A stretch of DNA of 25,532 bases from a virus. The notes beneath the pieces were generated by a model, which was not told the origin of the DNA, made no database searches, and worked only from the letters and a program-made list of their open reading frames with translations. Numbering within the stretch: position 1 is the first letter of the stretch; each line of letters opens with the position of its first letter. The stretch lies in the IMG/VR virus record IMGVR_UViG_3300029787_005091, positions 1 to 25,532 of that record; one strand, written 5' to 3'. Made by a program: the position numbers and the translations under genes. Shown one piece after another: positions 1-25,532 of this stretch.

Positions 1-811
1 ACCGAATGCAATAACAATATTTCTGCTCGTAACTCGTTCTGAACACACCATACGATACATTCGTCCCCGTGTCAAGCTTAGACTTGACAAAGTTGTTGAT
101 TTTTCTGAACAGAGTGCCGTCATTCTTTAGGTCGTCCTCTCCAATACCATAGTAGTATACCACGTCCTTTGTGTTTGTCAAGGGATAAAACCACCTTTCT
201 TTATACTCAGTATAGTCATCACCCTCCAACGTCACTGCGCCTATCGTGCATATGCGCGACAAATCAGACGGAGTGATAAAATTGCCAATTACAGGCTCTG
301 AGTGCTTAAACACGTTGGTCATATGAATAATGTTTACGATTGCTTGATTTAGCGTGTCATAATAGCCAATAATTGACATGTCACCAATACTTCGCTCGAT
401 ATAAGCATTATTGACCATAATAATTCGCTCTAAAACGCCCGAACGAGCATATTCTTGCAGAACAGAGGATACAATTTTCTCTTGTTTCTTCTGAATCTCA
501 GACATAATCGATAGATCGCCCTCAATATACAAAACAGTCAGTCTGTTCTTTTGAAGTTGTTCCAGTAGTCGTAGAGAGCCACCAGAAATCTTGCCTGCAC
601 CGGCAATAACAACCAGTACATTCTCATCTTTAAACTTTAGCTTTCTCTTAAGATCCGGGAATGAGTTATCGTACTCTTCGTGATTCTTTTTAGCTCTAAT
701 CGTGATATCGGCATCTGGACTGCTATCGATACCATAAGTTTGGTATTGCGGAAACTTTGAGAAAGCCTTCGCTATGTTGCAACCAGCCTTGCCGAGGCCA
801 ACCACAATCAT
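1..811 (-). CDS. FtsZ/tubulin-superfamily protein, divergent, C-terminus cut by window edge
   Basis: Reading the minus strand from an ATG at 811 gives 270 codons with no stop, running off the left edge. Seen: an N-terminal glycine-rich loop, VVGLGKAGCNIAKAF (residues 3-17), like the FtsZ nucleotide-binding start. VVIAGAGKISGGS (67-79) aligns with the FtsZ/tubulin signature region (TAGMGGGTGTG) but with K-I replacing G-G. A helix-rich stretch then leads to RIIMVNNAYIE (129-139), matching the FtsZ IPND segment. A long helix follows at about 150-168, then PSDLSRI (181-187) at the T7-loop position, keeping one Asp where FtsZ has two. Residues 218-258, including NVSYGVFRTS (251-260), resemble the FtsZ C-terminal domain (ANIIFGAVID). 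The family is a set of GTPases that form filaments; known phage members (PhuZ, TubZ type) position phage DNA or capsids. The start overlaps the upstream stop as ATGA. A plain Rossmann protein is the main alternative. GTPase activity is uncertain because the signature loop is degenerate. Confidence 0.75.
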   Translation of the reverse strand, partial: MIVVGLGKAGCNIAKAFSKFPQYQTYGIDSSPDADITIRAKKNHEEYDNSFPDLKRKLKFKDENVLVVIAGAGKISGGSLRLLEQLQKNRLTVLYIEGDLSIMSEIQKKQEKIVSSVLQEYARSGVLERIIMVNNAYIERSIGDMSIIGYYDTLNQAIVNIIHMTNVFKHSEPVIGNFITPSDLSRICTIGAVTLEGDDYTEYKERWFYPLTNTKDVVYYYGIGEDDLKNDGTLFRKINNFVKSKLDTGTNVSYGVFRTSYEQKYCYCIR

Positions 812-1122
812 TCTTGAATCCACTCCAGAAAATAGCCCATATCAAAACCACCGCGCTCAATACGCTTAACGGTTACAGCCGACATAATCTGAGCATCCCG
901 TATGCCTTCTCGTTCGCAAATAAAATGAAGAATTTCCATGATATCAGCTGCTTCCTCAGCGCAAGGGTTCTCAACAAACTCCATCACTTCTTCCTGGAGC
1001 TTCTTGAAGGCCGCATTTCTAAGTGCTTCGCCTTCAAGAATCGTGGTTTGATGAACTTTGCCTGCTTCTTCGATAATCTCTGGAATTCGATCTCGGACAA
1101 GCTTGTGATGTAGTGTTTTCAT
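808..1122 (-). CDS. MazG-like nucleotide pyrophosphohydrolase
   Basis: A 104-aa all-helical protein of the MazG / phosphoribosyl-ATP pyrophosphohydrolase-like superfamily. Such enzymes hydrolyse nucleoside triphosphates (or PRPP-like substrates) to monophosphates and pyrophosphate in the cytoplasm. Seen: the opening HKLVRDRIPEIIEEAG (residues 6-21) is characteristic of the small house-cleaning branch. The metal-binding pattern is EExxE (E44, E45, E48) followed by ExxD (E57, D60). The length is normal for a single-domain member. It starts with ATG inside the end of the polymerase gene (ATGA, 4-bp overlap) and its own stop overlaps the start of the FtsZ-like gene in the same way, so the three are probably translationally coupled. 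MazG-like enzymes are common in marine phages and are thought to alter the nucleotide or alarmone pool; the substrate here cannot be told from sequence. Confidence 0.85.
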   Translation of the reverse strand: MKTLHHKLVRDRIPEIIEEAGKVHQTTILEGEALRNAAFKKLQEEVMEFVENPCAEEAADIMEILHFICEREGIRDAQIMSAVTVKRIERGGFDMGYFLEWIQE

Positions 1123-2306
1123 AATTTTAATTCCTTCATTTGACCTAGATGCTTGCCTGCTGAGACATTCACCTTAAAATCACCATAGCGGGTTTTTTTG
1201 AACGTGTCAAGCATTTCTACAATTGCCTGTCGTTCGTCATTTGCGAGATCGATGTACACAGCGTCGTGAATAAGAAACGCGATATTGCTTTTCATCCCCC
1301 TCAAAAGCTTGAAAACCTTATATGCCTGCTCATGCACCATATCAATGGTGGTGCTTTGCACAATGTAGTTTAGAGAGCGGTGCTCATCTACATTATCCAT
1401 TATTCTACCATAATCAGTCTTGATTTTGAAGCCATTCCAGAACTTATTTCGTACAATATCCTTATTGTAAAGTTGCTCTAACTGCTTGTTTTCATTGGAA
1501 GAATACAACCAAGCGAAAGTCTTGACTTTGGCTTCCTCACGGGTTAACGTATTATTGAATACGTTCTGAACATTCCAATCATGAATGTCATTTTGCGGCT
1601 GTTCTTGCTCGGATAGAGCCAAAAGTACTCTTAACTCTGCGGCGTTGAAGTCAAGTTCCACGAGCCAATCATTGTTCGGCTTAATACATCCACGAAATTC
1701 CTTGCCCATCGTCAGAATCGGAAAAGACTTAGGCTTTGTCGCAAGTCTGCCGGTTACAGTGCCCCAGGCGTTATAATCACACACCCAACGTGAGTTACGG
1801 AGCCTGTGATGGAAGTTGCGGCCCTTTACGGAAGACAAAAGATGCTTGATGGGCTCGATATCTATGTTTAGGTCTCTCGACTCAATATCCGTGAGCATCT
1901 GAACCAGATTGGACATATGCTCGTAATTCTCAGGACGTTCAAAGTTCTCCAAAACGTGTTTTGTGACCTCATTTTTCGCATTCATGTAGCGATAAAGGAA
2001 ATATTCGGGCAATACGTCGTAGAAGCAATTATCGTCCAAAGAAAGGTCAGCCGTTTTGAAGGCTCTCAGACACGATCTAAGCGTGTTTTTGATTTCCTCC
2101 CAGTCAGCCTTCATATCCTCCGGACAAACGTCTGTAATCGACGCTCCGTTCGCGTAGATGCGTGCTATCTCGTAGTTACCTTCACCCAAATGACTGGAAT
2201 ATTCCCAAGTGCCACCTTCTGATGGAAGATCCGTCGTAGAGTTTATCTGATTTTTAGCAAAATAGCCAACACAATCGCGCTTGGCGTCAAGAACTTGAAA
2301 AAGCAA
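1119..2306 (-). CDS. Compact family A DNA polymerase, polymerase domain only
   Basis: A 395-aa DNA polymerase I-type polymerase core. Seen: TVTGRL (183-188); motif A, LDFNAAELRVLLALS, with the metal-binding Asp at 219; motif B (O-helix), REEAKVKTFAWLY (256-268), with R256, K260, F264 and Y268 at the spacing of E. coli R754, K758, F762 and Y766; a GR segment (300-301) and LNYIVQSTTIDM (312-323); and motif C, LIHDAVYIDL, with H347-D348 but Ala in place of the usual Glu. There is no room for a 3'-5' exonuclease: fewer than 185 residues precede TGRL and they look thumb-like. The start is TTG, chosen because a strong GGGAGG ribosome site lies 5 nt upstream and the first internal Met is about residue 65. 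It sits after baseplate genes, unlike T4, which uses a family B polymerase in an early region. It could be a repair or accessory polymerase, or one half of a split replicase. Confidence 0.88.
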   Translation of the reverse strand: MLFQVLDAKRDCVGYFAKNQINSTTDLPSEGGTWEYSSHLGEGNYEIARIYANGASITDVCPEDMKADWEEIKNTLRSCLRAFKTADLSLDDNCFYDVLPEYFLYRYMNAKNEVTKHVLENFERPENYEHMSNLVQMLTDIESRDLNIDIEPIKHLLSSVKGRNFHHRLRNSRWVCDYNAWGTVTGRLATKPKSFPILTMGKEFRGCIKPNNDWLVELDFNAAELRVLLALSEQEQPQNDIHDWNVQNVFNNTLTREEAKVKTFAWLYSSNENKQLEQLYNKDIVRNKFWNGFKIKTDYGRIMDNVDEHRSLNYIVQSTTIDMVHEQAYKVFKLLRGMKSNIAFLIHDAVYIDLANDERQAIVEMLDTFKKTRYGDFKVNVSAGKHLGQMKELKL

Positions 2307-12592: not shown

Positions 12593-15454
12593 TTAATCGT
12601 CAAACGATGCTCCTGTTCTTGTGATGTTGAAGTCAATCGCAATGAACTCAATTGCTCGCGTTGGCTTCAAGAAGATCTTCGCATATAGAATGTTTCTATC
12701 GACAAGATCAGGGGTTGTGGTTGTGTCATCAAGAACAACTCTGTAATCGGATAGACCAAAGTTTGTCTTAACATCAGCCAAGAATGGGTTAACCTGTGCT
12801 GTGAATCGCTTCCAAGTCTGCTGTACGTTTGGATCAAAGAGCAAGCCAGAGGCAATCTGGGAAATGCGCTTCTTAACAAAGATCATTAGACGTCGAACGT
12901 TAATGCGATCCAGCGCTGAAGGGGTAACCTGTAGGGTCTTCTGACCGAAGATTACAATGCCCTCTGCTGGGAACTTAGCGATTGGGTTAATGTTCGCAGC
13001 GTAGAGGTCATCACGATCCTTTCGGCGTAGCTGGTGAGCAACATCAACAACTGGGATACCCGCAGAGCCTTCTGTGAGTCCACCGCGGTTGAAACCAGCT
13101 GGCGCGAACCAAACCTGTGTTCTACGCTGTGAGCTAGAGAATGTTCCAATAGCTGCGACAGAAGGTGGCAACCATACGAACTGACCGTTGATGGTGTCTC
13201 GTGCTCTAACCCATGGGTAGTACGCTGCACCGTAAGAGGAGTTTAGATTCCTGGATCGAAGTCCATTAACCAATGTAGTAATTGTTGACTGCGTGTTGAG
13301 GCGCTGGAGTTCGGATCCATCTTCTCTTGGCTGGAAAGCATCCGGAAGATCGATAACTGCTAGAGCATCTGCGCGTTCCTCACAAGTTCTAACAAGATGT
13401 GTTGTGAGTCCTTCCTGGGTCTGCGCAGGAATAGCGGCTAGGTTCATTTCAACAACCTCAGGATCCGAGATAGAATCAATAGCTCTTCTAATCGAGAAGA
13501 AAGAGTAACTAGTCGAGTCAGATGGAGTCCCAGGCATTCTTGTTGCTGAGAATGGATCCATCTCCTTGATATCTACACCATCAAATCCACCGAAAAGAGG
13601 AACTGTAAATCTATCGTAACCCTGGTCAAGGACTCCTGAAACCGCACCGTTCTGGGCAGTTAGAGATGTTTCAGTTCCCGAATCACCTGAGCCGACAACA
13701 TGTACACCTGATCCTGAAATATCATCCAGCGTGAAGGTTGGCGACAGTTCTGTATCAGTCTCACTGGCAGTGAAATCCCCCACAATGCCACCGCGGGGTC
13801 GAAGCAAGTCTATAGTAGATTTTGCGAAAACCGTCGAGCTTGCAGAGCGACCGGCTTGGAAGCCGAAGTATGCATCGGTTGGATTTGCTAAGTTACCATC
13901 AGAGGCGCTAACACGTAGCACGGGCTCCGGGAAGGTTAAGGTAGTCAAAAGCGTCAGGGCGTTTGTAGATGTAACAGACCCGGATGTAATGAAAATACTT
14001 CCTGTTGTATAGGCTCCGGCCCCGATAGCTGCCGGGAGAGCAATTCCTGATCCTGAAACCCAGCTACTCTCGGCGCGGGCGGAACCGCCTGCTCCGGTGC
14101 CTGCCACAGCTGTAAGATCCTGATACTTTGTAATACCCTTGAATCCGAAAGGAAGCAGCGAAGGATTTGTATTACCTGCATCTACATCAGAGTTAACAGA
14201 AACATAAATATACTGAGAGTTGTTGGGGTAGTTTCCTTCCTGAATGTATCTTCTTTCCGTCGTGTCCCATGTTTCTCTGTAATCACCGATCTTTCGCGCG
14301 ATGTAATTAAGGGAGTTCGGGTTTAGGTTACAGTTGTTAAACTGCTCTACGACGCGGACAACGTTATCGCTGTCACTGAGGTGTCTAACAACAACAGAGA
14401 ATGTGCCGTACTCGTCCTCATCGTTGGTTGATCTCTTAATATCCTGAATAGAGACCTTAAGGTTCTTGTTGGTCCAATCACCGGGCTCACCACGAGCGAT
14501 AAACTGAAATAGGTCTGTGGCTGTTGCGGAAGGCGAAAGCTTGCAGCTAACAATCTGAGGTGTTCTCGCTGCTTGTAGAACATATGAAAAGTCATCTCCC
14601 TGGGTAGTGCCGTTCTTAATCCTGATAAATGCAGCCGCAATTGAAGAGCTGTCATCAGTTAGAACTTCGTCTAAGTGACGATCAAATGTTTCACCCAAGA
14701 AATAATCTTTTCTGTTATTAGTAGTGGTGATGGCATCCGTGAGAAGCTGTGGGTTTGTGTTGAAAACTTTTCTGATGTATCGTGAATCGTTTCGGTTAAA
14801 ATTAAAAGTAAGTTGATCCGTCGAGGTACCGGCGGCTTGATTACCAATAACAGCCTTAAACTCCTTTGCAGTGGAGTCAGAGGATATAACAACAATGTCT
14901 GAGCCTGTTAGGGCTGCAGCGCTGTCAGTGCCGCTAGTGAATCCTGTTCCTGTGCCCTGAAGTATGGCACCAGAAAGCTGCAACTCAACATTATCTTTTG
15001 TATAAAAAATGGCTCCCAACGCTCCAGTTAAAACGTTGTTGCTGCCAGTTTGGAAAAGAACAAGTCCGTAAGCACGGTTGTTAGTGCCGGCTGTCCAGCC
15101 AGCTTCTGCAGGCTGACCGGAGGCGCTGTCGTCTTCAGCACCGAGTAAACGAATATAAGTTAAGGGAGAACTATTGCGAAGATAAGCTTGCGCGGCATAC
15201 ATTCCGTATGTTGTGGCGGTTGTGTTGGCGCCCTGTCTCCATACATCATCGCCGGAGTTTCCTGGACTTGGGGTGCCGAAAACACTAACAAACTCCTCAA
15301 AAGAGTTTACTGTTATTGGTCTAAGTCCTGGACCTTTTTCAGCGCGACCAATGATAACTGGTCCAATGCCTGCTGGCGAAGCAGGGAGCTGTGAGTTATC
15401 AATTTCGTTGACAAAAACGCCGGGTGATACAAATCGGTAATTCTTAACTGACAT
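12593..15454 (-). CDS. Contractile tail sheath protein, gp18-like, enlarged
   Basis: A 953-aa sheath subunit that contracts to drive the tube through the envelope. Seen: the classic N-terminus VSPGVFVNEIDNS (9-21) and GPVIIGRAEKGPG (31-43), and the conserved C-terminal core: PWVRARDTINGQFVWLPPSV (about 715-735), VWFAPAGFNRGG, NPIAKFPAEGIVIFGQKTL, INVRRLMIFVKKRI and KIFLKPTRAIEFIAIDFNIT near the end. T4 gp18 is 659 aa, so about 300 extra residues are present. They fall in the middle (about 80-640), rich in Ser, Thr, Gly and Ala, consistent with surface-exposed protrusion domains. It starts with ATG behind TAGGAGA, 37-54 nt downstream of two tandem promoter-like motifs. Confidence 0.95.
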   Translation of the reverse strand: MSVKNYRFVSPGVFVNEIDNSQLPASPAGIGPVIIGRAEKGPGLRPITVNSFEEFVSVFGTPSPGNSGDDVWRQGANTTATTYGMYAAQAYLRNSSPLTYIRLLGAEDDSASGQPAEAGWTAGTNNRAYGLVLFQTGSNNVLTGALGAIFYTKDNVELQLSGAILQGTGTGFTSGTDSAAALTGSDIVVISSDSTAKEFKAVIGNQAAGTSTDQLTFNFNRNDSRYIRKVFNTNPQLLTDAITTTNNRKDYFLGETFDRHLDEVLTDDSSSIAAAFIRIKNGTTQGDDFSYVLQAARTPQIVSCKLSPSATATDLFQFIARGEPGDWTNKNLKVSIQDIKRSTNDEDEYGTFSVVVRHLSDSDNVVRVVEQFNNCNLNPNSLNYIARKIGDYRETWDTTERRYIQEGNYPNNSQYIYVSVNSDVDAGNTNPSLLPFGFKGITKYQDLTAVAGTGAGGSARAESSWVSGSGIALPAAIGAGAYTTGSIFITSGSVTSTNALTLLTTLTFPEPVLRVSASDGNLANPTDAYFGFQAGRSASSTVFAKSTIDLLRPRGGIVGDFTASETDTELSPTFTLDDISGSGVHVVGSGDSGTETSLTAQNGAVSGVLDQGYDRFTVPLFGGFDGVDIKEMDPFSATRMPGTPSDSTSYSFFSIRRAIDSISDPEVVEMNLAAIPAQTQEGLTTHLVRTCEERADALAVIDLPDAFQPREDGSELQRLNTQSTITTLVNGLRSRNLNSSYGAAYYPWVRARDTINGQFVWLPPSVAAIGTFSSSQRRTQVWFAPAGFNRGGLTEGSAGIPVVDVAHQLRRKDRDDLYAANINPIAKFPAEGIVIFGQKTLQVTPSALDRINVRRLMIFVKKRISQIASGLLFDPNVQQTWKRFTAQVNPFLADVKTNFGLSDYRVVLDDTTTTPDLVDRNILYAKIFLKPTRAIEFIAIDFNITRTGASFDD

Positions 15455-20768: not shown

Positions 20769-21488
20769 TTATGGTAGTGCGACACGCTGGTATCCCTTAA
20801 ATTTCCAATTAGTGACAGCCCACGTTGCTCCAGTTCCACCAATTGATAGATAAGCGTAACGTGCCCCGCCGGCGCGATCCCATTTCTCAGCAGTTCCGAA
20901 AGTGCTGTATGAAGGTGTCGCGCCGCTGCCGCCTGCATACCAAGTGATTGTTTCACCAATAATCGTAAAACGAATCCATTGAAAGTCAGTGACCGTTACG
21001 GATGATGTTCCGGACACAGCGTCAATATCGCCCTGCCCGCCAGCATATGCCGCAAGACCGACGCCGCGGCCTACGCGAATACCAACAATGCCGCCTTCAT
21101 TTGAGGCTGCGTCGTTACCTGCCCCTACGCCCATAAACAGCTGGGTTGTCCCACCGGAACTTGAGGATTTAACACGGGCTTCTACATCCACATCGCCTAT
21201 CAGTGCGTCGGGCCACCATATGCGCGCTGCGAGGCTCCAAGCTGAACCGTTGGCGCATTCATCTGAGGTGTCGTTTTCCAAAGACAGCTTTGATCCGTCG
21301 TCAGCGATCGCCTGAAAGTGACCACCGGGGTCATGGACCTTTGCACCGTTAGCTAGTGTGGCATCAAGGGTTGCACCATCAGCGATGCTGGATGGGGTTC
21401 CACTAGCAGGAGTTAGGGCTTTTTCCAATAATTGTGGGCCGGTGCTCGACTGCAGTAGCCAAATTCCATTTTCCAATACTAATGCCAT
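20769..21488 (-). CDS. Lectin-like adhesin / fibre-tip protein with shared N-terminal tag, 239 aa
   Basis: The N-terminus MALVLENGIWLLQSS resembles that of the gene just upstream (MALVLKDGTWQLVNN), suggesting a common docking peptide. The remainder looks like a concanavalin/LamG-like beta sandwich: VDVEARVKSSSSGGTTQLFM (about 100-120), GIVGIRVGRGVGLAAYAGG, TDFQWIRFTIIGETITWYAG and a terminal strand WAVTNWKFKGYQR. Such domains bind sugars, so a host-receptor or capsid-surface adhesin is likely (inference). Composition is unlike its neighbours: the 60 nt from 21001 contain 36 G or C by hand count, suggesting recent exchange. It starts with ATG 36 nt after the previous stop. No catalytic motif is seen. 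Confidence 0.65.
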   Translation of the reverse strand: MALVLENGIWLLQSSTGPQLLEKALTPASGTPSSIADGATLDATLANGAKVHDPGGHFQAIADDGSKLSLENDTSDECANGSAWSLAARIWWPDALIGDVDVEARVKSSSSGGTTQLFMGVGAGNDAASNEGGIVGIRVGRGVGLAAYAGGQGDIDAVSGTSSVTVTDFQWIRFTIIGETITWYAGGSGATPSYSTFGTAEKWDRAGGARYAYLSIGGTGATWAVTNWKFKGYQRVALP

Positions 21489-21524
21489 CTTGTTTATGTT
21501 CCCTTTATATTAAATGCCTAAGCA

Positions 21525-22358
21525 TCATTCTAGGCGAAGCACTATAAATTCTGTAAACACAGCTTCCATACCAGTGGCGCTGGTGTTCTCAAAAGTAAAT
21601 GGACCGACAGCCCACTTTTCGGGGGTCATGATAAGGTGAGTGTCCACCGGGCCCGGGTTATCCGTATGACGAGTGCTGGAATTATTCCATATAGCAGTGT
21701 GATGGATTGTATCCCAATCGTTGTCCGACTTTGGAATTGGGAACTTTCTCGATGGCTCCGTGGTCCAATTGAAAACTCCACCTCGGGTTCGGACCGAGCC
21801 GCCGGGGTAAATGGTCATAATGACACAATCAGCATCAACTCCGGAGATCGTGTCGGAGTCATACTCTGTGCCGTCACTCACGTCATATTTGGACGAGCCG
21901 TTATAAATTGGTCCTGATTTACAGAATCTATCATTTTGGGACGAAAGTGTTCCAGAGTTTTGAGCCATAACCATGCCAAAGGAATCATAGTTAGCCTGAA
22001 CTCCCGTGGAACTTGTCATGCGCAAGATACAGGCCACAGTTTGCGTGGTGGGATCCCAGCCATCAACCAAGTCGTTAAGTTCACACATAATACGCGGCGC
22101 AGTATCTCCCCCTGAGAACAAGTTCGACCCATTTGCAGGATCAATTTTAAGACCGTTGTTGATTAGAAGAGTTGACGCATTGCCTTTATTCACCACAGAC
22201 CACGTCGCGCCATCGATTACCAAAGTATCTCCTTCTGTTTTAAAATTGTGATTGGAAACAGTTTTGAAATTAACTCTGTATACCTCGCGCCACTGTCTCG
22301 CGTCAGGGTTGCCATTATTGACTAATTGCCAAGTTCCGTCTTTTAATACTAGTGCCAT
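21525..22358 (-). CDS. Adhesin / fibre-associated protein with shared N-terminal tag, 277 aa
   Basis: It begins MALVLKDGTWQLVNNGNPDA, sharing M-A-L-V-L-x-x-G-x-W-x-L with the next gene downstream. The rest is beta-rich with many Asn, Asp, Thr and Gly (for example FKTEGDTLVIDGATWSVVNK, about 39-58) and a final strand AVFTEFIVLRL, consistent with a jelly-roll domain. No enzyme motif is recognised. It sits 11 nt after the 559-aa fibre gene. The tag plus different bodies suggests two interchangeable tips or decoration proteins attached to one site. Host-range function is inferred from position and modular design. Confidence 0.6.
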   Translation of the reverse strand: MALVLKDGTWQLVNNGNPDARQWREVYRVNFKTVSNHNFKTEGDTLVIDGATWSVVNKGNASTLLINNGLKIDPANGSNLFSGGDTAPRIMCELNDLVDGWDPTTQTVACILRMTSSTGVQANYDSFGMVMAQNSGTLSSQNDRFCKSGPIYNGSSKYDVSDGTEYDSDTISGVDADCVIMTIYPGGSVRTRGGVFNWTTEPSRKFPIPKSDNDWDTIHHTAIWNNSSTRHTDNPGPVDTHLIMTPEKWAVGPFTFENTSATGMEAVFTEFIVLRLE

Positions 22359-22369
22359 CTTATGCCCTC

Positions 22370-24049
22370 TTATGTTGTTGAAGTAATTCCCCAGCCATAA
22401 CCGAGCTGTGATGATGAGAACGCTGTCACTGTTACCGCTCCGAAATCTGTTTGAATCTTGGCCTGGGCTGCTCCGTCGATCTTTTGTGAGCCAGAAGCTG
22501 CGATGACCACATTATTGGTTGATCCGGAACCAGCGATATCTTTAATAGTATAAGTTAAGCCTAGGTTAGCATGAGATGTGACCCCTGGAAGCGTTCCAGT
22601 AACTGCCGAAGCTTTAGTGTTTACAATAAAGGTTCTGGTGTCTCGAATGTTGAAGTTTGCTGTTTTTTCGTCGGAAACACCAATGGTAATTTGGCCTTTG
22701 GCAGTAAAATTACCAGACCCAGATATATCACCAGATTTTTCCAGTTTTATGACAGAAGTAGTGCCACCTTGGTCAGAGTAAACAGCGACTGGGCAGCCAA
22801 ATACGCCCACACCGGGGCCGCTTGGGTTGCCTACGAATTCAACGCCATTTGACGCTGATAGAGTAACAGCGCCGGCATCATGTCCCATCACAAAGAAATC
22901 ATCGGATCCGTCTACTAAGACACCAATAGTACGGTCTGTCCCAGAGCCAACAAAGATATCTTGTCCATTTGCCACAGAGGCTGATACCCTCATGCCAACT
23001 GAAGCTGTTAGGGATCCGGAAGCGTGGATCACATCAGTGGACGAGGCGCCTAATATAGTATCGCTGTTTAATATAATGTTTCCTGGACTATTAAGGTCTA
23101 GGTTATTACCATTATTGACAATCTTGGCTGTCTCTGTATTGCCATTAAAGAAAATAGACTTTCCAGGTGTTAAGTAGAAATTTGAGCCCGAGATGTTTCC
23201 GGAACCCGAAATATGACCGGAATTGGATAGCGATATGACAGTATTGCTGCCAGCCTGTGTAGCATAAACCTTGATATCAGATCCGAAGGAACCAACACCT
23301 TCAGAGCCACCAATAAACTCAACACCGGATGAAGCTGATAGCGTGACAGCGCCATTGTCGTGACCCATCACAAAGAAGTCGTCGCTGCCGTCAATCAAAG
23401 TTCCTATGGTTCGGGATGTTCCCGAGCCAACAAAAATATCTTGGCCGTTTGCAACAGAAGCGGACACTATCATGCCAACCGATGCCGTTAGAGACCCTGA
23501 CACGTAAATAGTGTCAGTCGCCGCAGACCCTAGTGCGAGGACATCTGCGCCATTTTCATCCAAGCGAATCAGGCGTTTTCCGCCCGCAACAAGATCCATC
23601 GAATCGGACCCGGCAGGACCAAATCGAATGTGTGTATCCGAGTCTCCGTTAACCCGGATGTATCCGCCACCAGAACCGTTGCCGAAATAAGCATTTTGAC
23701 CCTGGACATACAGCGTGCCCGTTAGGAAAATGTGGTCAAGAGCAGCATTCGTTCTGATATTGGCAGAGCCCGAGATTTCTCCTGTTACCGGAGCGTCTCT
23801 TCTAAACTGAATTGAATATTCTGGTCCGTCAGCAACATTAACAGCAGATGCCGTAAGTCCTGTTAAGTTTGAACCATCACCATAAAATGCAGAAGCAGTA
23901 ATGTTCACGGACGCTGACAGCGATCCAGAACCGTCCGTGGTCAGTAGAGCCGATCCACTAAACGACCCATTATTATTAAACTGTATATCTTTATCAGCGC
24001 CTCCGGGGGTTGTTGTTGTTCCACCGCCCGGTCCAAATACCCATGACAT
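22370..24049 (-). CDS. Tail fibre-like protein with internal duplication, 559 aa
   Basis: A Gly/Ser/Ala-rich beta-repeat protein typical of phage fibres. N-terminal part: VFGPGGGTTTTPGGADKDIQ (4-23) then ITASAFYGDGSNLTGLTASA (50-69), the 'GDGSNLTGL' element common in fibres and trimeric adhesins. Two tandem units at residues 174-285 and 334-447, exactly 160 residues apart at their core, share SGSLTASVGM and GSDDFFVMGHD. The C-terminal module (about 476-559; GTLPGV, YTIKDIAGSGSTNNVVI, GSQKIDG, ending GWGITSTT) recurs in form at the end of the fibre gene at 24156. No chaperone-cleavage motif is recognised. It starts with ATG behind AGGAGA, 23 nt from a promoter-like motif and after a strong terminator, so it heads the fibre unit. 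Confidence 0.75.
   Translation of the reverse strand: MSWVFGPGGGTTTTPGGADKDIQFNNNGSFSGSALLTTDGSGSLSASVNITASAFYGDGSNLTGLTASAVNVADGPEYSIQFRRDAPVTGEISGSANIRTNAALDHIFLTGTLYVQGQNAYFGNGSGGGYIRVNGDSDTHIRFGPAGSDSMDLVAGGKRLIRLDENGADVLALGSAATDTIYVSGSLTASVGMIVSASVANGQDIFVGSGTSRTIGTLIDGSDDFFVMGHDNGAVTLSASSGVEFIGGSEGVGSFGSDIKVYATQAGSNTVISLSNSGHISGSGNISGSNFYLTPGKSIFFNGNTETAKIVNNGNNLDLNSPGNIILNSDTILGASSTDVIHASGSLTASVGMRVSASVANGQDIFVGSGTDRTIGVLVDGSDDFFVMGHDAGAVTLSASNGVEFVGNPSGPGVGVFGCPVAVYSDQGGTTSVIKLEKSGDISGSGNFTAKGQITIGVSDEKTANFNIRDTRTFIVNTKASAVTGTLPGVTSHANLGLTYTIKDIAGSGSTNNVVIAASGSQKIDGAAQAKIQTDFGAVTVTAFSSSQLGYGWGITSTT
22709..23050 (-). repeat. Fibre internal repeat, copy 2
   Basis: Encodes residues 334-447 of the 559-aa fibre. 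The core at 22844-23020 (residues 344-402) differs from copy 1 at only a few residues, with extra silent base changes, so the duplication is old but constrained. Confidence 0.8.
23195..23530 (-). repeat. Fibre internal repeat, copy 1
   Basis: Encodes residues 174-285 of the 559-aa fibre; the core is 23324-23500 (residues 184-242). The offset to copy 2 is 480 nt in the core. After the core the two copies diverge and one carries a two-residue length change. Confidence 0.8.
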
Positions 24050-24071
24050 ATTAAATTTTCTCCTGCTTCCT

Positions 24072-24079
24072 TAAATAGT
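24072..24079 (-). promoter_or_regulatory. ACTATTTA motif upstream of the fibre unit
   Basis: The coding strand reads GGCAACTATTTAAGGAAGCA; the motif ends 22 nt before ATG 24049. It lies 12 nt after the terminator of the preceding fibre gene, as expected for a new transcription start. Confidence 0.5.
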
Positions 24080-24090
24080 TGCCCAAAACT

Positions 24091-24121
24091 AAAAAGGGAG
24101 TCCCCCTTTCGGAGGACCCCC
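24091..24121 (-). terminator. Strong Rho-independent terminator after the first fibre gene
   Basis: The coding strand has GGGGGTCCTCC (24121-24111), a GAAA tetraloop (24110-24107), GGGGGACTCCC (24106-24096), then TTTTTAGTTTTG. The 11-bp stem has two G-U pairs; with the GNRA loop and U-tract it is a textbook terminator. It begins 34 nt after the stop codon at 24156. Confidence 0.9.
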
Positions 24122-24155
24122 AATTTATTAGCAGGATTAACCAGCTAGTTCTAGA

Positions 24156-25532
24156 CTAGACGATTCTCCAAGCGTTTGCAGCAACGTATACCAAAGATAT
24201 AGCAGCGTATGGGGACTCAAGACTAACGTTGGCTTCGCCATCAATTAGGTGAGAACCCTGGCACGCGACTCTAAGGGTGCGGGAGTTGCTAATGTTACCA
24301 GCCTTGACGTGTACAACATCACCAACAGTTGGTGCTGCTGGAAGGTCTACGCCTACATTGCCCGCTGAAATGTCAGCGAAGTAGTTGTAACCTTCTGCGA
24401 GTACATCGCCATCAGCCTTAAGAGCAACATCGTTACCAGTAACCTTAAGCTGACCGGAAGCGGCCGTAAGACCGGCTCCTGCCATTAAGCCTACAAGATC
24501 AGCCCACTTTTCTTTCTTGGCGTCACCAGTAGCACCGCCATCAAGGAACATCACATAATCGTCAGCAACTACCATAGCTGCTTCAGTCAACAATGCTGGA
24601 CCGTCAATGAAGAGGTTATCAACACCGATCTTCTTGAGTGTTCCACCATCGGAGATCAAAAGCTCATCAGCTGCAGCAAGTCCGTCTAGAGCAAGCTCTG
24701 TCTGGGCGCTAATGACGTCGTCGTTAAGCATGGAGCCGTGGACAGCGTCAGCAGCGATGGAAACTACACCAGCGTTTGTCATGGAAATATCACCAGAAAG
24801 CTCGAAAGAACTGTAATCAGTTCCGTCAGCGATCAAGATGTGCTTGTTGGTTGCAGCCAATGAATCATCAAAGATGTTGATCATGGAAGGCTCAACAGCG
24901 TCAGCAGCGATGGTGAGAGCACCACCGGCAGCAACTGTGGCATCACCGGAAACCGATGCGTAGATCAAGTTGTCACGAACGTCAGCGAAAGAATCACCCT
25001 TCATCAAGCTGTCGTCAGCATCTCGGAAGTAAACCAAGTCTGCTGCAGCAGCCACTGCGGATGCAACACCGTCAAGACGAACTGTACCACCAAGCTCAAG
25101 CTTGCTGGAACCGGAAAGGGCGCCTTCAATGCTGAGATTGTTTAGACCCGAGAGGTCCTTACTGCCGTCTGCAACAAGTGCCTTAGAAGCAGCTACTGTA
25201 CCAGCTGTGATACCGTCAAGCATCTCAAGCTCAGACTCAGTGAGCTGAGCACTGCCGATCTCAAAGTAACCGGTTGCTGTAACATTGCGGAAGCCCGAAA
25301 TGTCCTTGTTGCTATCAACGATAACAGCCTTGGAAGCAGCAACTGTACCGGCGGTGATACCGTCGACTAAGTTAAGCTCTGCAGCTGTCGAGGTGACGAG
25401 TACGCCACCAAGCTTTAGACCGTTAGTTGCATCGTGTGCAGCAATGTCAAAGTCATAAGCACCGTCCTTGATTGTGATGTCACCACCACCAGCAAGTGTA
25501 ATCATGTCACCGATTGAATCTGGACCGATGGT
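24156..25532 (-). CDS. Tail fibre-like repeat protein, N-terminus beyond the window
   Basis: 458 codons are visible. The frame is open to the right edge (TIGPDSIGDM precedes the first internal Met at 25505), so the true start is outside. Seen: two copies of an ELNLVDGITAGTVAASKAVI-type unit (about 49 residues apart), two SGD...IAADAV...SM units, long Ala/Gly/Asp-rich beta-repeat sequence, and a C-terminal module (VDLPAAPTVGDVVHVKAGN, GSHLIDGEANVSL, ending AANAWRIV). These units are widespread in fibres of aquatic T4-like phages. The C-terminal module resembles that of the 559-aa fibre in layout (L-P, K, IDG, W-x-I). It ends at TAG, 34 nt before a strong terminator. Likely a trimeric host-recognition fibre; its adsorption target is unknown. 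Confidence 0.8.
   Translation of the reverse strand, partial: TIGPDSIGDMITLAGGGDITIKDGAYDFDIAAHDATNGLKLGGVLVTSTAAELNLVDGITAGTVAASKAVIVDSNKDISGFRNVTATGYFEIGSAQLTESELEMLDGITAGTVAASKALVADGSKDLSGLNNLSIEGALSGSSKLELGGTVRLDGVASAVAAAADLVYFRDADDSLMKGDSFADVRDNLIYASVSGDATVAAGGALTIAADAVEPSMINIFDDSLAATNKHILIADGTDYSSFELSGDISMTNAGVVSIAADAVHGSMLNDDVISAQTELALDGLAAADELLISDGGTLKKIGVDNLFIDGPALLTEAAMVVADDYVMFLDGGATGDAKKEKWADLVGLMAGAGLTAASGQLKVTGNDVALKADGDVLAEGYNYFADISAGNVGVDLPAAPTVGDVVHVKAGNISNSRTLRVACQGSHLIDGEANVSLESPYAAISLVYVAANAWRIV

Follow-up and report, generated by a model that had tools for sequence, protein, structure and literature searches.

Does a T4-like phage encode a tubulin of its own, and what would such a protein do during infection? 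Phage tubulins have been described chiefly in jumbo phages that form a nucleus and in plasmid-like phages. The window, i.e., the whole stretch of DNA analysed here, is a 25,532-base IMG/VR record, and a divergent FtsZ/tubulin homologue had been predicted at its left end from the letters alone.

The gene and its FtsZ-ordered motifs

The tubulin-like open reading frame starts with an ATG at position 811 on the minus strand, runs without a stop through base 1 and leaves the window at its left end. The window holds 270 of approximately 288 codons, and about 18 C-terminal residues lie beyond it, because full-length relatives have 277-290 amino acids. The features of the locus are collected in Table 1.

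Four of the segments that the original prediction had arranged in FtsZ order were present, namely G5-x-G7-x-x-G10, GAGKISGGS (71-79), IIMVNNAYIE (130-139) and NVSYGVFRTS in the C-terminal domain. This order was not due to chance, because it included invariant residues in 57 relatives, fitted the predicted full tubulin fold and came with a dN/dS of 0.01-0.06 between close family pairs. The reading of D183-L184 as the T7 'DL' had to be given up: position 183 was E in 37, P in 5, D in 4, Q in 3, N in 3 and G in 2 of 57 members and was unconserved.

Table 1. Positions of the tubulin-like gene, its motifs and neighbouring genes (window positions unless a contig is named)
Feature	Position	Strand	Evidence
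Tubulin/FtsZ-superfamily gene, 5' part	1..811	minus	Open reading frame; full-length relatives; tubulin fold in the AlphaFold2 model of L002 (97% identical)
T1-like loop GLGKAGCN, residues 5-12	776..799	minus	G5, G7 and G10 invariant; like FtsZ T1 GVGGGGGN
T2-like IDS, residues 28-30	722..730	minus	D29 invariant; FtsZ NTD position
T4-like signature loop GAGKISGGS, residues 71-79	575..601	minus	Family pattern G-x-G-x-[IV]-[ST]-G
IIMVNNAYIE, residues 130-139	395..424	minus	N135 invariant; FtsZ IPND / tubulin N206 position; collinear with FtsZ in hhalign, alone not significant
Helix H7 with YYDTLN (residues 150-155)	305..364	minus	DSSP of model; Y151 in 53/57, N155 in 57/57
T7/H8 region, residues 170-186	254..304	minus	Shortened; models without H8 helix; acidic residues unconserved
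C-terminal (activation-type) domain, residues 187-270	2..253	minus	Relatives continue with a short helix and end in LDDQ[DE]I[SG]
Small protein with KLVRDRIP motif, MazG-like nucleotide pyrophosphohydrolase	808..1122	minus	Weak: dATP/dGTP pyrophosphohydrolase E 0.038, below cut-off
Family A DNA polymerase (polA), 395 aa, polymerase domain only	1119..2306	minus	DNA_pol_A 1.8e-14; phrog_17 9.8e-18
Hc1-like gene	L079:8192-8377		PF07432
Hc1-like gene	L145:11069-11254		PF07432
Hc1-like gene	L125:11722-11907		PF07432

Predicted fold

The protein of the relative L002, which is 97% identical to the window protein, was modelled with AlphaFold2 using a 44-sequence alignment and no templates, and the model reached a pLDDT of 88.2 and a pTM of 0.88. 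When the model was compared with the PDB using Foldseek, the top 50 matches were all FtsZ, TubZ, CetZ or tubulin (1fsz, E 1e-11). VIA-align yielded a Z of 23.7 with CetZ (3zid_B; 3.2 Å over 260 residues) and of 21-23 with FtsZ, TubZ and tubulin, with a span from model residue 1 to approximately 284. A second AlphaFold2 model, made from a different query (a member approximately 49% identical) and a 13-sequence alignment, gave the same fold, with a pLDDT of 83.7 and a Z of 21.8 against CetZ. Across both models, the pTM was 0.84-0.88 and the Z was 20-24 over 250-270 residues. In the BFVD viral structure library, the first match of both models was A0A6J5RW92, annotated 'FtsZ', from an uncultured Caudovirales phage (E 1.6e-13 and 8e-14), and the next ranks were held by tubulin-like phage proteins. 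Both models combined an N-terminal GTPase-type domain, H7 and a C-terminal domain in one predicted fold.

These results predicted a two-domain tubulin fold with high confidence, and on these models the protein almost certainly belongs to the tubulin/FtsZ superfamily, which bears out the prediction of a divergent member in a T4-like phage. A plain Rossmann or TrkA-type domain without the tubulin C-terminal domain was not what we found, since both domains matched. The models could still be an AlphaFold artefact, the protein being a plain Rossmann/TrkA-type nucleotide-binding protein, and TrkA_N was indeed the best Pfam match of the family (34 of 44 members, best 2.9e-5). However, in the near-identical relative of the window protein this match covered residues 2-34 only, as a GxGxxG match, and the complete two-domain fold came out of both models, which differ in query and alignment, at pLDDT 84-88 and Z 20-24. 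We regard the artefact as scarcely credible.

Sequence searches and extent of the family

No significant assignment to tubulin by sequence came from Pfam, PHROGs, NCBIfam, PDB phmmer or hmmsearch. Pfam Tubulin (PF00091) reached a best E of 0.011, in two of 44 members and below the cut-off, and had no match in seven large contigs; Pfam Tubulin_2 had no match in the family. In hhalign, the alignment to 33 FtsZ sequences was collinear, yet it did not score above shuffles, the reversed alignment or unrelated families. The score against seven PhuZ sequences was 26.3, which was weakly above the background (higher than 99 of 100 column shuffles, with one shuffle higher). We count the PhuZ score as a weak signal only. 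PhuZ identity itself was rejected, because the PhuZ profile phrog_4733 did not match the family (the phiKZ PhuZ control matched at 4.6e-118) and the PhuZ T7 motif LDxxD[IV]xNW was not present.

Scanning IMG/VR with the window protein revealed 77 loci with full-length matches at 47-97% identity. Alignment-based scans of IMG/VR gave 147 and 166 matching stretches, from which the best 80 of 147 and the best 80 of 166 were retained. A divergent subclade (L479-L483), reached via the neighbouring polymerase gene, had approximately 34-44% identity to the main family. No match to the family was found among 50,697 phage records, and 84,980 prokaryote genomes scanned by peptide pattern, a method that reaches close relatives only, yielded no homologue. 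The window gene is, by its predicted fold rather than by a Pfam threshold, a member of a coherent new family within the tubulin superfamily. The family is nameless under sequence tools, and the finding fills this annotation gap.

Nucleotide pocket and T7 catalytic loop

Across 57 non-redundant members, the residues G5, G7 and G10 (T1), D29 (T2), G71, G73 and G77 (T4), N135 and N155 were invariant, and position 151 was Y in 53 and F in 3, i.e., Y/F in 56 of 57. Compared with the signature GGGTG[ST]G, the T4 pattern of the family was degenerate yet recognisable, and the divergent subclade carried GGGATSG and GGGAISG. The guanine-contact positions (tubulin N206, Y224 and N228) were retained as N135, Y151 and N155. 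The assignment follows the order of sequence and secondary-structure elements and does not come from a superposition or a solved complex. In this assignment, we take YYDTLN at the start of H7 to resemble the tubulin Y224-G-D-L-N228 guanine contacts and N135 to occupy the FtsZ IPND / tubulin N206 position, in the usual tubulin numbering.

The T7 catalytic acid (FtsZ NxDxxD) had no conserved counterpart in residues 165-190 of the 57 members, where E172 occurred in 51 of 57, and the divergent subclade L479-L483 likewise had no conserved T7 acid. The T7/H8 element was shortened, and the H8 helix was absent from both models. The suspected loss of catalysis was therefore strengthened by the unconserved T7 acid in the 57 members and in the subclade. 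In PhuZ, the single mutation D190A abolished hydrolysis, and stable GTP-dependent filaments formed (PMC4244570). The conserved pocket, the unconserved T7 acid and the PhuZ D190A result together led us to propose that a nucleotide is bound but hydrolysed weakly or not at all in the canonical way. From these residues, the T1/T2/T4/N135/N155 pocket of the protein is likely to bind a guanine nucleotide, be it GTP or another, and hydrolysis in the canonical mode is somewhat more likely weak or absent than efficient. The missing T7 acid weakens the case for canonical hydrolysis but leaves that for the fold as it was.

Acidic C-terminal tail

The sequence [DG][DG]Q[DE]I[SG] ended 53 of 63 members. 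Several PhuZ tails terminate in IDxDD[NQ] plus a short extension, and the PhuZ acidic knuckle is required for polymerisation (PMC3678025). The resemblance of the tail to the PhuZ knuckle region is short and possibly coincidental, and we treat it as a lead only. The tail is not essential to the whole family, because it is absent from L052, L053 and the L479-L483 group. A DIPxFL-like FtsZ C-terminal conserved peptide (FtsA/ZipA binding) was not found, the protein ending in the short acidic tail instead.

A replication operon behind the structural genes

The gene order in 27 contigs was baseplate-type genes - polA - [MazG-like] - tubulin - gp32 - [Hc1] - [176-aa unknown] - RecA/UvsX - 5'-3' exonuclease - DnaB/gp41 helicase - ribonucleotide reductase, with gp32 identified by Pfam PF08804 (7.7e-13). 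The stop of the MazG-like gene and the start of the tubulin gene overlap by 4 nt (ATGA, 811-808), as do the polA stop and the MazG-like start (ATGA, 1122-1119), and the same 4-nt overlap was observed in most relatives inspected. The MazG-like gene was missing in L057, L058, L070, L479 and L481. The coupling of polA and tubulin is independent of the MazG-like gene, because without that gene (L058, L479 and L481) the start of tubulin directly adjoins the polA stop or overlaps it.

These results indicated that the tubulin gene sits in a translationally coupled replication operon, directly after structural genes. The label 'late region' therefore did not fit; the gene is part of the replication module, which comes immediately after the structural genes. 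Action late in infection was not borne out either: the coupling links the gene to polA and the MazG-like gene, and the genes after it are gp32, RecA, exonuclease, helicase and ribonucleotide reductase. T4-type late promoters TATAAATA were uninformative, with none in the window and no clear enrichment in two large contigs. The gene arrangement points to co-expression with replication genes, and operon position shows co-expression at best.

Several further observations concern the neighbours. A 62-aa gene follows gp32 in 12 of 27 contigs, and the three checked were histone H1-like Hc1 (PF07432, up to 5e-20); an Hc1-like protein near gp32 is a possible phage DNA-compacting protein. Given where the Hc1 family occurs, we take it as a hint of a Bacteroidota host. 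The 395-aa polymerase is without a recognisable exonuclease domain, and polymerases of similar size were observed in sister phages. In two phages, the gene for a protein that resembles GmrSD_N, at a score short of the Pfam cut-off, was inserted downstream of gp32 (L088:12024-13253 and the same cluster in L111).

The neighbourhood also bears on whether the tubulin fold might be reused in a protein that does not polymerise and instead acts on the replication/dNTP module as a nucleotide sensor or regulator. The MazG-like protein and ribonucleotide reductase both handle nucleotides, and the T7/H8 element for polymer contact is shortened, which would suit such a sensor. Against it, both tubulin domains and H7 are retained, and the C-terminal-domain segments VVYYYGI, SYGVF and YEQKYCYC are nearly invariant; together these suggest more than ligand binding, and we consider a sensor quite improbable.

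A core gene of one phage lineage

In 78 polA-anchored loci, the tubulin gene was present in 71 of the 71 with a decidable downstream region and lacking in none, 7 being too short; the order polymerase, tubulin, single-stranded DNA-binding protein held in 62 of 62. Tubulin distances tracked those of polA and gp32 (Mantel r 0.83 and 0.85, with 0 of 999 permutations as high), and the tubulin carriers formed a single group with support 1.0 in the gp32, RecA and polA trees. Among sister phages, which have the same replication module, the tubulin gene was found in none of 25 loci with polA and gp32 both visible, including those of Microcystis phage Mel-JY01, Flavobacterium phage immuto and the 484-kb LR756508, and a whole-record search of these three found no tubulin. 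The sister-phage ORFs in the polA-gp32 slot were not tubulin-like. Taken together, the tubulin gene is a core replication-module gene of one T4-like phage lineage, inherited with the lineage and under purifying selection.

The same slot held other cargo in the sister phages. Gene length had suggested a tubulin in this position of Mel-JY01 too, but the 428-aa protein before gp32 (WWT39336.1, L146:4598-5881, annotated hypothetical) proved to be S-adenosylmethionine lyase-like (PF23780, 4.4e-10). In L270-L349, the polA-gp32 interval was a cargo hotspot, where sugar epimerase-like, peptidoglycan hydrolase-like and LamG-like genes (by eye) lie beside a conserved protein of approximately 134 aa.

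This inheritance also bears on a host FtsZ antagonist, which would co-assemble with or cap host FtsZ and block division during infection. The FtsZ fold is common to both proteins, and a subunit without the T7 acid could conceivably poison an FtsZ filament. However, conservation follows the phage replisome genes rather than the fast turnover often seen in anti-host factors, the FtsZ-like C-terminal peptide is missing, and sequence similarity to FtsZ is at noise level. We give an antagonist only a small chance.

The phages carrying the gene

The capsid protein of these phages was of the T4 gp23 type (phrog_138, 1.5e-71), and its best-covered matches included Mel-JY01, immuto and Rhodothermus phage RM378. 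Judged by these matches, it lies near the 'Far-T4' phages, the description of which does not mention FtsZ or tubulin (PMC4360716). The large relatives were contigs of up to 194 kb, with a GC of 0.46 in the two measured. In the window, the tail sheath protein (12593-15454) had 953 aa against 496 positions in the PHROG profile, suggesting a large insertion, and past the major capsid and scaffold-like genes (20769-25532) lay a series of large proteins of repetitive appearance, which are probably parts of the surface or of fibres.

In seven large contigs, which may be incomplete, we found no integrase (positive controls worked). In the same scope (seven contigs of 76-194 kb, possibly incomplete), Rpb2-type multisubunit RNA polymerase was absent, with working positive controls, and chimallin had no match in a search without a positive control. 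The missing integrase counts against a TubZ-type partition protein serving a carrier (plasmid-like) state, as do neighbours that are replisome genes, none of which was recognised as TubR-like on reading the adjacent genes. TubZ is among the closest folds, and even so we hold a partition role to be very improbable.

A dynamic PhuZ-like filament, in which a non-canonical residue would hydrolyse GTP and treadmilling would centre phage DNA or carry capsids, has more in its favour: the full tubulin fold is predicted, the acidic tail is PhuZ-like, the only profile score slightly above shuffles was that of PhuZ, and the phages are large, with contigs reaching 194 kb. It meets several objections, as the PhuZ T7 motif is without counterpart, the PhuZ PHROG did not match, and multisubunit RNA polymerase and chimallin went unseen in the large contigs (the latter search, as noted, without a positive control). 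Moreover, PhuZ is dispensable and is encoded by 66% of the chimallin phages (PMC10299810), unlike the tubulin gene of this lineage. We consider a dynamic spindle unlikely.

Proposed function

We prefer a slow or static GTP-bound filament that would organise replicating phage DNA, a reading that we hold with about even confidence. The protein would bind GTP and assemble head to tail. Its hydrolysis would be slow or absent, because the T7 loop is without a conserved catalytic acid, giving a stable rather than a dynamically unstable filament. Produced together with the polymerase, gp32, RecA and the histone-like protein, the filament would provide a scaffold on which replicating phage DNA is gathered or positioned, and it may be locked by the conserved acidic C-terminal tail, like the PhuZ acidic knuckle. 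The protein probably polymerises, whereas a role in replication or DNA organisation is put forward tentatively, at slightly less than even confidence. More speculative, and on balance doubtful, is the fuller proposal of a hydrolysis-independent phage tubulin that forms a stable scaffold of the replisome or replicating DNA, as an obligatory core part of a T4-like lineage without a phage nucleus.

Comparison with known systems

The closest solved fold was archaeal CetZ (3zid, 4b45; Z 20.3-23.7 over 252-264 residues), which differs in being cellular and longer, with 12-16% identity and an unlike T4 signature and T7 acids. FtsZ shares the two-domain fold and the order of the T1, T2, T4, IPND-type and H7 elements, but the phage family has G-x-G-x-[IV]-[ST]-G at T4, no T7 acid, no C-terminal conserved peptide and no significant sequence similarity. 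TubZ of Bacillus plasmids and Clostridium phage c-st shares the fold (Z approximately 22); it is longer and works with TubR/tubC in episome segregation, whereas no TubR was recognised among the neighbours of the family. A0A6J5RW92, the best viral structural match of both models, has 452 aa, is 17-18% identical and is uncharacterised. FtsZl1 and FtsZl2 are likewise diverged prokaryotic superfamily members found by remote similarity and context, but they are cellular and occur in membrane-remodelling contexts (PMC2875224), and the phage family has no Tubulin_2 match. PhuZ of Chimalliviridae (phiKZ, 201phi2-1) is also phage-encoded and short, with a tubulin fold and an acidic C-terminal tail to which that of the family bears a short resemblance; the present family differs in having no PHROG or BLAST match to PhuZ and no LDxxD T7 motif, and in belonging to another phage lineage, where it lies in a replisome operon and is present in all decidable loci, in contrast to the dispensable PhuZ.

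What is new beside these systems is a strictly conserved tubulin in the replication operon of a large and widespread lineage of uncultured T4-like phages from the environment. Its catalytic loop is remodelled, and nothing seen in the large contigs pointed to a phage nucleus. Two questions would become open to test: do ordinary T4-like phages use a cytoskeleton to organise their replication, and can a filament of tubulin function when GTP is not hydrolysed? Compared with the known nucleus-forming jumbo phages, the modelled fold, whose nucleotide pocket looks intact but has no conserved residue for hydrolysis, suggests that a phage-made filament tied to DNA replication may exist outside them.
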